A DNA stretch of 59,905 nucleotides from Gloeobacterales cyanobacterium ES-bin-313 (GTDB lineage: Bacteria > Cyanobacteriota > Cyanobacteriia > Gloeobacterales > Gloeobacteraceae), in assembly GCA_014379585.1 (NCBI GenBank), contig JACMLN010000037.1, positions 1 through 59,905 on the forward strand, written 5' to 3'. The position numbers were made by a program, and so were the translations under genes. Under the pieces are notes generated by a model. The model was not told the origin of the DNA and made no database searches. It worked only from the letters and a program-made list of their open reading frames with translations. This document shows, in pieces, positions 52,865-56,105 of this stretch; the stretch's first letter is position 1; the number at the start of each line of letters is the position of its first letter.

Positions 52865-54145
52865 TCACTGTTTCTCCATAATACCAAAGGATGCAGATCT
52901 GACCAGTGTTCTGCGCAAAAAATCGAGAGCCGATTGCGTACTGACCTGGCGGATCAACTCCCGTTCCCAACGGCTATTAAACCGATGCTGCTGGGACACT
53001 GCTCCCTGGGCACTGGCAAGCGCGATGTACACAAGACCAATTGGTTTTTGGGCTGTGCCGCCACTAGGGCCGGCGATGCCCGTAATCGCTAACCCCCAAT
53101 CGCTGCCGAACGCTTTACACACACCGATAGCCATTGCTTCTACGACGGGGGCACTGGCGACCCCATGGGCGATCATTAATTCGGTATCTACACCGAGTAA
53201 GTCGCTTTTGGCCATGTTTGCGTAGGCAACAATGCTTCCCAGGAAATACTGAGAAGCACCCGACAGGCTGGTGAGCTGCTCACTGAGCAACCCCCCTGTA
53301 CAGGATTCGGCAACAGCAACGGTTTCCCCTCGCTTGATCAGCAATTCGGCCACCACTGCGGCAAGACTGTCTTCATCGGCTCCAAAACAGTCGAGACCAG
53401 TAATCTCCCGCAGTTGCGCTTCAACCGGCGCGATTAATTGGCGGGCACTTTCTGGGTTAGGAGCGCGGGCGGTGATCCGCAACTTCGCTTCTCCAGCGTG
53501 GGCGTAGGGAGCAACGGTTGGGTTGGAGCCTTCTAAGAAGGGGCTGACACGCTCGGCAAGGGTCGATTCGGAAATGCCCCAATGGCGCAGCATCCGGCTA
53601 TAAAAAACTTCCTGACCCCAGCCTTGTGCCTGCAGATAGGGAACCGCTGTCTCTGCCCACATCCGCTTCATTTCTCTCGGTACCCCCGGAAATGTGAGCA
53701 CGGTAACATCCGATCGGGGCTGCCAGATCAATCCAGGTGCCGTACCAATCGGGTTGGGAAGCACCGCTGCCCCCAGCGGCAACATCGCTTGTTTGGCGTT
53801 GCTCGGTGCCATGACGCGCTGCCGTTCCTGGAACATAGCCTCAATGCGCTTGAGTTCTTCGTTCTGGAGCACCATCGGCACCCCAAAAAACTCCGCTAAG
53901 GTTTCGTGGGTAAGATCATCGACGGTTGGGCCTAAGCCACCCGTGGTAATGATCAACCCAGCGCGCTCACTAGCAAGGGCAAGGACTTCTTTGATCCGTG
54001 CGGGATTATCGCCAACCACTGTTTGATAATGGTGAGGGATCCCCAACCGCGCTAGTTCCGTGGCCAGATAATGGGCATTGGTGTTCACAATTTGACCGAG
54101 CAACAGCTCGCTGCCAATGCAGATAATTTCCGCACTTATGCCCAT
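52865..54145 (-). CDS. cinA: CinA family competence/damage-inducible protein (NMN deamidase domain)
   Basis: The 426-residue protein combines an N-terminal molybdopterin-binding-like (COG1058) domain (IICIGSELLLGQIVNTNAHY, IITTGGLGPTVDDLTHE, FPGVPREM) with a C-terminal nicotinamide-mononucleotide deamidase domain (VAVAESCTGGLLSEQLTSLS, TGIAGPSGGTAQKPIGLVYI). CinA recycles pyridine nucleotides and is linked to competence. Its first ~75 bases are antisense to an open frame on plus that I treat as non-coding upstream of 54206. Confidence 0.93.
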   Translation of the reverse strand: MGISAEIICIGSELLLGQIVNTNAHYLATELARLGIPHHYQTVVGDNPARIKEVLALASERAGLIITTGGLGPTVDDLTHETLAEFFGVPMVLQNEELKRIEAMFQERQRVMAPSNAKQAMLPLGAAVLPNPIGTAPGLIWQPRSDVTVLTFPGVPREMKRMWAETAVPYLQAQGWGQEVFYSRMLRHWGISESTLAERVSPFLEGSNPTVAPYAHAGEAKLRITARAPNPESARQLIAPVEAQLREITGLDCFGADEDSLAAVVAELLIKRGETVAVAESCTGGLLSEQLTSLSGASQYFLGSIVAYANMAKSDLLGVDTELMIAHGVASAPVVEAMAIGVCKAFGSDWGLAITGIAGPSGGTAQKPIGLVYIALASAQGAVSQQHRFNSRWERELIRQVSTQSALDFLRRTLVRSASFGIMEKQ

Positions 54146-54205: not shown

Positions 54206-54616
54206 ATGGCTTACAAACGCACGCTAATTTCGATTCTACTTTCGCTTATGCCGTTGGGGTTGGGTGCGGAGGAGATTCTACAATCCTCTCCACCAGCGGA
54301 TCAAGCGCTCAAAAATCCGATCAACATCACGATCACCCTGAAACTTGACGCTTCCTTGGACTGGCACCACCCCAAAATTGTGATCGATGGCAACGACCTC
54401 TCCAAACCACTGCGCCCGTTGATCGAAGGCGCTGTTGCTGTGGTGCTCTCTGATGGCCAAAGTGTGCTTGCCGAGCGGGATCTCAGCCCTGAGCAGATGG
54501 TGCTGCACCTCTATGGTTTTGAGGCTCCACTTGGTCCCCACCAAGTCTTCATTGAAATCCCGCGCAATGGGGGCGCACCATTGCGCTATCGGACACAATA
54601 TGCAGTCGCTCGTTAG
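54206..54616 (+). CDS. Secreted protein with Ig-like (copper-resistance CopC-like) domain
   Basis: The 136-residue protein from ATG 54206 has a signal peptide (MAYKRTLISILLSLMPLGLG) cleaved near GAEE. The mature part, EILQSSPPADQALKNPINIT, ITLKLDASLDW and YGFEAPLGPHQVFIEIPRNG, looks like a small beta sandwich. The phrase SSPPADQALKNP recalls the start of CopC/DUF-type domains, but metal ligands are not evident. It is the first of three co-directional genes (gap to GTPase 26 bases). The 135 bases upstream in frame overlap cinA and are excluded. Confidence 0.65.
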   Translation: MAYKRTLISILLSLMPLGLGAEEILQSSPPADQALKNPINITITLKLDASLDWHHPKIVIDGNDLSKPLRPLIEGAVAVVLSDGQSVLAERDLSPEQMVLHLYGFEAPLGPHQVFIEIPRNGGAPLRYRTQYAVAR

Positions 54617-54642
54617 CATATCTTTGGAGGCAGGGGAGAGAC

Positions 54643-55563
54643 GTGCATCCGCCGGGGCATACTAACCCAGAAGAACTCACTCAAGAGTTCCATGGGAGCT
54701 ACGACGTGCTCAAAAAACCCGCATTAAACCCTAGCGCGCAATCTGAAGGAATGGCCTCCAGAACTGGTGATACATTTACTTTTCAGCTGATCGGTCAACG
54801 CGGCGTCGGTAAGACTGTTTTTTTGGCGACGATGAGTTCCCAGTACGACGACCTTACAGAGTATGGCCTCTGTAGTGCGGATGTACAGACGGAGAATCAA
54901 GTCCAGCAAATCCTGACTTTCATGCGCAACAAGGGCAGCTACCCACCTGCCACAAACCGCAGTATTCCTTTTACATTCGACCTTTATCCAAAAGGCTCAT
55001 CATCGAGCCGCAAACCTCTGTGTACTTTTCGTTGGGAGGACATACCCGGTGAAATCTGCCAGCTATGGGATGAAGGCTTCAATCACAGCACAGCCAATTC
55101 CAGTGGTTGTTTAATCTTTGTCGATGCCAATGCCTTGATGACCAATCCCGGCTATATAGAGAATTTGGATCAACTCACGGATTTGGTTTTACCGCTTGTC
55201 AATATCGTTGCCCTCAATGGTATCACTTATCCTGTCGCTATCGTGCTCACGAAATGCGATATGCTCGGCACTTTGACCCCCCAATTATCGGGTATCCTTC
55301 AAGAGCGGCTGGAACCAATTATCCGTGGCTTAAAGCGTTTTAATATTGCCCACAAAGTTTTCCATTCTTCCCTAAGTTTGACCCGCCCAGGAAGCTCAGG
55401 CTCCTACACATTAACAGTTGGCAATACTGAATCTCCGCTGCTATGGCTGATTGAAGAGATTCAGCGAGTACGCAAAGTGCCCGTCTTGGTCAAAATTGCT
55501 AAATTGCTCGGATTGCGCCAAAAACGCAAAAACAAAGGCCCACGCATTTTCAACGCTTACTAA
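54643..55563 (+). CDS. P-loop GTPase of the double-GTPase/TRAFAC-like kind
   Basis: A 306-residue soluble protein. Walker A GQRGVGKT at 51-58 (FQLIGQRGVGKTVFL), a G3-like WEDIPGEICQLWDEGF and a G4-like VLTKCD (TKxD) are visible. The core lacks membrane spans, and a basic end (RQKRKNKGPRIF) closes it. Pattern and partner recall the DO-GTPase type of conflict-system GTPases; assignment is inference. GTG start with AGGGGAGAG upstream. It is followed after 14 bases by a small protein that fits a GTPase-associated partner. Confidence 0.72.
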   Translation: MHPPGHTNPEELTQEFHGSYDVLKKPALNPSAQSEGMASRTGDTFTFQLIGQRGVGKTVFLATMSSQYDDLTEYGLCSADVQTENQVQQILTFMRNKGSYPPATNRSIPFTFDLYPKGSSSSRKPLCTFRWEDIPGEICQLWDEGFNHSTANSSGCLIFVDANALMTNPGYIENLDQLTDLVLPLVNIVALNGITYPVAIVLTKCDMLGTLTPQLSGILQERLEPIIRGLKRFNIAHKVFHSSLSLTRPGSSGSYTLTVGNTESPLLWLIEEIQRVRKVPVLVKIAKLLGLRQKRKNKGPRIFNAY

Positions 55564-55577
55564 ATCAAGGAGAGATT

Positions 55578-56105
55578 ATGAAAGCCACTATTAATTCTCC
55601 TATTGCCGCTGAACTCTGCTTCGGCCAACTTCTCTACTCAAGTTTTTACAAGCAAGGTTTTAAACTGATCACCAGTCCGCTGCCCGCAATTCTGGGCAAA
55701 GTCTTTGTCGAACAAATTGTCAATCGGCACTGGAATCCTTACGATCCACCCAAACCAGAAGAACGTTTTGCCTATCTCTTGCAGCTCAACAAACACCACA
55801 CCCTTTTTGGCTGGTTGCTCAACGGTGGCGAAGATGAAATGAATAGGGGTCATGTTCCTTATTTCCTCAGTTATCACCTCCAAGGAAGCCTCAGCGTTGC
55901 CCGCTTAGATACCCTCTTCGCTTGCCTGCGCAAAGGCCCCATTGCCTTACCGGGACGGCGACTTCCGCAAACCTTACAAGCCCTCCCGATCAGCACATTT
56001 CGGGGCTACCGCCCTGCAGCGCCAGGGGTTGCTGTTTCCACACAGATGCAGTTACACGCCCAAGATCGTTTGCAGCGGGGGCGCGCTATCCACCTGTTTT
56101 ACTGA
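55578..56105 (+). CDS. GTPase-associated-like small protein (GAP1-N-like, tentative)
   Basis: A 175-residue soluble protein. The block FGQLLYSSFYKQGFKLITSP, LPAILGKVFVEQIVNRHWNP and PEERFAYLLQLNKHHTLFG resembles the N-terminal domain of GTPase-associated protein 1, which recurs beside GTPases in bacterial conflict systems. The rest of that large protein is missing here, so it is either a single-domain form or a truncation. Start follows AAGGAG. It is the last of the three-gene run and is convergent with the phoD-linked gene. Confidence 0.6.
   Translation: MKATINSPIAAELCFGQLLYSSFYKQGFKLITSPLPAILGKVFVEQIVNRHWNPYDPPKPEERFAYLLQLNKHHTLFGWLLNGGEDEMNRGHVPYFLSYHLQGSLSVARLDTLFACLRKGPIALPGRRLPQTLQALPISTFRGYRPAAPGVAVSTQMQLHAQDRLQRGRAIHLFY

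Follow-up and report, generated by a model that had tools for sequence, protein, structure and literature searches.

A probable two-gene regulatory module of a DO-GTPase2-like GTPase and a predicted longin-like partner in a Gloeobacterales cyanobacterium

Three consecutive genes of the Gloeobacterales cyanobacterium ES-bin-313 raise the question of whether they act as one unit, and of what a P-loop GTPase and the small protein encoded behind it do together. The genes occupy positions 54206-56105, all on the + strand, of the window, by which we mean the whole stretch of 59,905 nucleotides analysed, the same as contig C39 of the 4.26-Mb genome (Table 1). The original prediction described a compact unit of three genes, with a secreted protein in the lead and intergenic gaps of 26 and 14 bases. 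The frame coordinates bear out this spacing, the 26-base value depending on a GTG start for the GTPase gene; an in-frame ATG at 54751 is a possible alternative start and would give a gap of 134 bases.

Table 1. Features of the locus, in window coordinates
Feature	Position	Strand	Basis or remark
Secreted-looking 136-aa protein gene	54206-54616	+	Open reading frame; neighbour, not a module component
GTPase, 306 aa, DO-GTPase2-like, predicted Ras/Rag-like fold	54643-55563	+	Pfam PF19993 below cut-off; model m13adaf7089ff
Walker A GQRGVGKT, residues 51-58	54793-54816	+	Alignments
Walker B / G3 DIPGE, residues 133-137	55039-55053	+	D133, P135, G136 and E137 invariant in 15 sequences
TKCD, residues 203-206, guanine-specificity motif of the TKxD type	55249-55260	+	T203 and D206 invariant in 15 sequences
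Partner protein, 175 aa, single predicted longin-like domain, weakly GAP1-N2-like, without C-terminal extension	55578-56105	+	Homologues; model mfb38ea4bf975
Predicted longin/roadblock-like core, b-b-a-b-b-b-a, residues 14-119	55617-55934	+	DSSP of the model
Conserved motif D-x(3)-R-x(3)-PYF, residues 86-96, before the fifth strand	55833-55865	+	18 sequences

The leading gene did not hold its place in the unit. Its secreted-looking protein belongs to a family without a match in a Pfam search; homologues at E < 1e-12 were found in six other genomes, every one from its own order, and as a query it matched 10/59 genomes, its own included, at E <= 0.1. The family and a divergent cinA (54206-54616 and 52865-54145 in the window) are kept side by side in all five same-family genomes, two loci of the comparison (L088 and L090) having a listed frame that was another frame of the same stretch, so that the secreted gene was placed there by homology search. 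Within about 1.5 kb of the secreted gene, neither the GTPase nor the partner was found in any of the five same-family genomes. Likewise, when the cinA/secreted-gene stretches of six relatives (~3.4 kb each) were searched with HMMs for the two families, GTPase and partner, none of them matched, and the window's own stretch did. We therefore rejected the secreted gene as a module component: it stays with cinA where the pair is absent, and is an unrelated cinA-linked neighbour of the pair. With the relatives' stretches lacking the pair, the three-gene unit dissolves, and the pair was either added at the window site or lost elsewhere. The scanned neighbours of the window pair encode CinA, a weakly lipocalin-like protein and PhoD.

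Judged from sequence, the frames of the GTPase and the partner are real and not chance frames; both have homologues at about 26-45% identity, and the frames are kept open in many cyanobacteria. The GTPase was said to have intact Walker A and TKxD motifs, and this was confirmed, with G51, R53-T58 and the Walker B and TKxD residues of Table 1 invariant across 15 aligned GTPases. This P-loop GTPase also has the conserved Walker B glutamate (E137) that PMC7159879 describes for DO-GTPases. Its match to Pfam DO-GTPase2 (PF19993) has an E value of 1e-5 and 25.8 bits, below the curated cut-off of 27; 8/15 aligned GTPases, the window one included, match this family at E <= 1e-3 (best 3.4e-7), and one relative matches IcmF-related_N (E 6e-4). 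TPR repeats occur in 6/15 GTPases, C-terminal to the GTPase domain in all three examined singly. The predicted structure (15 sequences; pLDDT 73.4, pTM 0.74; residues 1-40 of low confidence) matches Ras/Rag-type GTPases at Z scores of about 13-15, with Asgard RagO first (Z 15.0) and many others at 13-14, and MglA was second among its Foldseek matches.

Comparison of genomes shows that GTPase and small protein go together as a conserved pair. The window partner as query matched 11/59 genomes (own included), including 9/9 of those searched from its own order, and the partner family profile matched 11/244 cyanobacterial genomes, again with its own. The GTPase profile matched 13/244 genomes, eight of them closely (E < 1e-30), and all eight lie within the 11 partner-bearing genomes; the other five carry distant DO-GTPases (E 3e-17 to 9e-11) without the partner. 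The co-occurrence with GTPases that the original prediction expected was thus found, a close GTPase being present in 8/11 partner-bearing genomes (not in G043, G142 and G144) versus 0/233 others (Fisher P 6e-13, with kinship ignored and the threshold set afterwards). The threshold of 1e-30 was chosen post hoc in a gap between matches at 2e-39 and 3e-17, and excludes the five genomes with weaker DO-GTPases.

Gene order points the same way. We retrieved 18 genome-collection loci by short patterns, which biases them to close relatives; by title, 17 were cyanobacteria and one a Gracilibacteria bin. A GTPase lay within 4 kb of the partner in 15 of these loci (absent in L039, L041 and L042), directly upstream in 12 and directly downstream in one; among the 12, both frames are broken in L047 and the partner frame in L043. 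For the 19 loci L010-L028, with flanks of at most 1.5 kb, a GTPase was present in eight and none was seen within 1.5 kb in 11, and it was adjacent in six of the 11 non-own loci from the 244-genome partner profile search. The pairwise distances of GTPases and partners were correlated over 22 pairs (r 0.84; reached by 0/9999 permutations in a Mantel test ignoring kinship), and common descent alone also yields such a correlation. The alignments were built without duplicate loci or fragments shorter than about 120-140 columns.

The organism's own genome contains three copies of the partner domain and three GTPases (two paralogues besides the window one), arranged as two pairs (C39 and C68), a lone partner (C1) and a lone GTPase (C141). 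The lone GTPase paralogue (L009:7448-8227) is without the GE of DxPGE, and the 15-kb stretch that carries it has no copy of the partner; the solo partner on C1 may be the one it works with. A distant relative of the window GTPase was also seen on a plasmid of Calothrix sp. PCC 6303 (NC_019728.1, 103-5773), where two clear DO-GTPase2 genes and a weak third form an array; plasmids of Geminocystis and Anabaena carry relatives of the first. The array also encodes two unassigned proteins, P0001 and P0002, with a common YGRTYxVDFRF start; a link between them and the partner domain, guessed by eye, gained no support on comparison. Among the loci of the five partner-less genomes with distant DO-GTPases (L076-L080), L076 and L080 each have two GTPase genes in tandem.

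What kind of protein is the partner? It had no match in Pfam (E <= 10) or NCBIfam (E <= 1), and its residues D86, R90 and P94 are invariant, and Y95 nearly so, among 18 sequences. The model from these sequences (mean pLDDT 86.1, pTM 0.81) has, by DSSP, the strand and helix order b-b-a-b-b-b-a, which is the order of the longin core. Foldseek returned nothing below E 0.001 (best 0.14); among the 50 matches listed, GATOR1, FLCN-FNIP2, TagF and DENND10 were highest, at probabilities of 0.69-0.91, with fluorescent proteins next at 0.04-0.2. In VIA-align the partner matched TagF at Z 8.0 over 151 residues, followed by C9orf72-SMCR8 (6.9), the Lst4 longin (6.8), FLCN-FNIP2 (6.8) and TRAPP (6.6), with longin-holding entries spanning Z 5.6-6.9; the tool warns that a Z below 8 may reflect a common arrangement only. 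We take 21 of the first 22 rows, classed by entry title and general background and not by chain, to be TagF or longin/roadblock-type proteins or complexes; the remaining row is an unrelated de novo design (rmsd 10.7), and the 21 include one Rag-like GTPase of which the C-terminal part is what aligns. Given the modest Z scores, the fold call leans on the agreement among these rows, from which we infer a longin/roadblock-like fold for the partner domain. Sequence searches of solved structures with the partner and GTPase families and two GAP1-N2 queries gave nothing relevant and no GAP1-N entry.

No intact form shorter than the window pair was seen, its partner having 175 residues compared with 251-1045 in the other 21 pairs; other short partners, of 251-264 residues, are also without a recognised tail domain. 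Among 27 full partner proteins scanned, the tails carried WD40 repeats in ten, Robl_LC7 in four (at E <= 1e-3; three exceed the Pfam cut-off), PBP_like_2 in two, pentapeptide repeats in one and no recognised domain in ten, two of which gave weak Robl_LC7 matches when the tails were scanned alone (L041 2.8e-4, L035 1.2e-3). Robl_LC7 is confined to these C-terminal parts of some relatives; the conserved partner domain itself had no Robl_LC7 match in Pfam. Four Acaryochloris partners (L040, L044, L045 and L046) reach 1044-1052 residues, with WD40 repeats in L040 and L044 and a caspase domain (PF00656) in L044 and L045, the two proteins scanned in part (E 2e-14 and 1e-13); a PADLOC caspase model also matches the Acaryochloris caspase domain (E 4.5e-9). 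The caspase motifs SGHG and DCCY are present in three of the four, and L046 has SGYG, so that its caspase, having lost the motif histidine, may be inactive. A phosphate-binding-protein-like domain is recurrently linked to the partner domain, fused in L036 and L018 and, by eye, in an adjacent gene in L028 and L042. A simple hydropathy scan (19-residue mean > 1.9, a threshold of our choice) found hydrophobic segments C-terminal to the partner domain in 12/22 pairs and in the last 120 GTPase residues in 8/22, and neither in the window pair.

The likeness of the small protein to GAP1-N held only in part, though better than sequence databases would indicate: the GTPase co-occurrence and a weak hhalign link favour it, and against it stand the Pfam search, with a GAP1-N hit in 0/14 members, and HMMER, where the link fell among shuffles. 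GAP1-N2 (PF20013) was not matched by any of the 14 partner members or their consensus at an E limit of 10, although HMMER's filters drop most weak matches; nor was it found in the own genome at E <= 1, above the cut-off in any of the 244 cyanobacterial genomes (with the control detected), or on four large actinobacterial plasmids. GAP1-N1 was found in 0/59 genomes, a result of little weight since its controls were silent too. We therefore rejected a catalogued GAP1-N1 or GAP1-N2 identity for the partner.

For profile comparison the GAP1-N2 reference consisted of one bait sequence (178 bits to PF20013) and one natural sequence, a Rhodococcus plasmid gene found with it. The alignment of 45 partner domains against this two-sequence reference scored 29.1 in hhalign (probability 30%, over 40 N-terminal residues), and none of 150 column shuffles reached that score (mean 12.6, maximum 22.3). 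Against the bait alone the probability was 39% over 30 N-terminal residues; against the Rhodococcus sequence alone the score was 21.9 (shuffle maximum 19.2) and the probability 4.7% over 11 residues. With the partner family profile in HMMER, the bait came third of 476 listed, below two shuffles, and the Rhodococcus sequence took place 58. We regard the link between the partner and GAP1-N2 as a weak lead, its support being mixed and coming mainly from the bait.

Taken together, we favour a two-gene regulatory module, made of a GTPase switch and a longin-like partner, at a probability of roughly 0.6; in the best reading, a longin-like regulator reads the GTPase switch, and the pair is a cyanobacterial variant of DO-GTPase/GAP1-type systems. 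The DO-GTPase2-like GTPase, with its intact nucleotide-binding motifs, would be the switch. Many proteins that regulate Ras, Rab and Rag GTPases have folds of the longin/roadblock class, and the most likely role of the modelled partner domain is thus to bind the GTPase and to control or sense its nucleotide state. To judge from the relatives, this domain would be the constant element that binds the switch, and the interchangeable C-terminal regions (WD40 propeller, Roadblock, periplasmic-binding-protein-like, pentapeptide, and caspase with WD40) may be sensors or outputs; the hydrophobic segments predicted in many relatives suggest membrane tethering. As a minimal form without an output module, the window copy probably acts through other proteins, perhaps the longer paralogues of its own genome.

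The resemblance of the GTPase to DO-GTPase2 and, weakly, of the partner to GAP1-N2 could also mean a conflict module of the DO-GTPase/GAP1 type, for anti-phage defence or cell suicide, in which the GTPase would be switched once an invader is sensed, and the partner would free an effector; the class was proposed as conflict systems in PMC7159879. The caspase domains fused to Acaryochloris partners fit such a role, as do the variable C-terminal modules and the patchy presence of the partner over the 244 genomes, but it is present in every own-order genome searched, a more even distribution than a defence gene with fast turnover would be expected to show. Moreover, most of the fused modules are non-enzymatic, one of the four caspase domains is without its motif histidine, and the window copy has no such module. 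PADLOC models did not match either window protein, and searches of plasmid, phage and viral collections did not find the partner domain. The viral contig scans, based on short patterns that detect close relatives, gave no relatives of either the partner family or GAP1-N2. We consider a conflict module unlikely.

A polarity or trafficking switch like MglA-MglB, in which the GTPase and a Roadblock/longin partner would position machinery at the membrane, draws on the Ras/Rag-like GTPase model with MglA among its nearest matches, on the Roadblock domains fused to several partners and on the strong hydrophobic segments of the relatives. Yet Pfam places the GTPase nearest DO-GTPase2, Roadblock is found in a minority of the partners and the window pair is without a hydrophobic segment, and this reading seems to us improbable as well. 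The short partner could instead be a truncated remnant that lost its output module, the pair now decaying. Both window frames are open with their motifs conserved, however, partners of 251-264 residues without a recognised tail domain exist too, and only about 30 bases lie between the window partner and the next gene, so that no trace of a longer gene is visible; we give decay very little credence.

A wider and still doubtful proposal is that GAP1-N2 and the cyanobacterial partner domain are bacterial longin domains, and that DO-GTPase/IcmF-type GTPases with longin-like partners (GAP1, the window family and perhaps TagF with TssM) belong to a single, ancient type of bacterial switch that parallels eukaryotic Rag-GATOR/FLCN and Rab-TRAPP and has interchangeable outputs, caspases among them. 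Longin and roadblock folds serve as small-GTPase platforms in eukaryotes, and predictions place both in Asgard archaea as well. According to the introduction of PMC10933270, these families are thought to be archaeal in origin, with roadblock sporadic in bacteria. Longin, roadblock and TagF are not mentioned in the main text of Kaur et al. 2020 (PMC7159879), and our literature search, with most subscription papers outside its scope, found no paper on the cyanobacterial pair. A cyanobacterial GTPase with a longin-like partner, weakly tied to GAP1-N2, could supply GAP1-N with a fold and a testable role, and would exemplify a bacterial switch that exchanges its outputs among scaffolds, receptors and caspases.

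Three known systems invite comparison. TssM of type VI secretion belongs to the IcmF family and has a P-loop. TagF (TagF_N, PF09867) is the best structural match of the partner, and the IcmF-related_N match of one GTPase relative is a further likeness; tagF lies directly 3' of tssM, overlapping or within 32 bases, in eight of ten loci fetched out of 141 plasmid records with a TagF match, 40 of which were listed, the other two being L101, without an annotated tssM beside tagF, and L103, which is unannotated. On the other hand, TagF has no sequence or profile similarity to the partner (no Pfam hit; hhalign score 12.5, reached by 52/150 shuffles), and no type VI gene was recognised beside the window pair. 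A likeness seen by eye around 'D..GR.FPL' was rejected as a sign of sequence homology, being unsupported by hhalign or HMMER, and the hhalign -glob alignment with TagF was an end-overlap artefact.

With MglA-MglB and the eukaryotic Rag/Rab GTPases with longin/roadblock regulators, the window pair shares a Ras/Rag-like GTPase model and a longin/roadblock-like partner model, and some partner relatives carry Robl_LC7 as a further likeness to MglA-MglB. It differs in that the GTPase sequence is nearest another family (DO-GTPase2), and the partner domain, known here from sequence and models, is not Pfam Roadblock or Longin. The DO-GTPase/GAP1 systems differ in other respects: GAP1 has three domains (GAP1-N, -M and -C), whereas the single-domain window partner is too short for GAP1-M and GAP1-C; their units often have two GTPases, compared with one here; and the window pair stays under the Pfam cut-offs, its GTPase lacks the N-terminal zinc ribbon (the first 40 residues are without cysteine) and no GASH or FNIII protein was recognised among its scanned neighbours. 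What the window pair and its relatives share with these systems is the DxPGE glutamate of the GTPase (PMC7159879), a partner gene usually just 3' of the GTPase gene, the weak hhalign link to GAP1-N2, and a constant partner domain followed by variable extensions.
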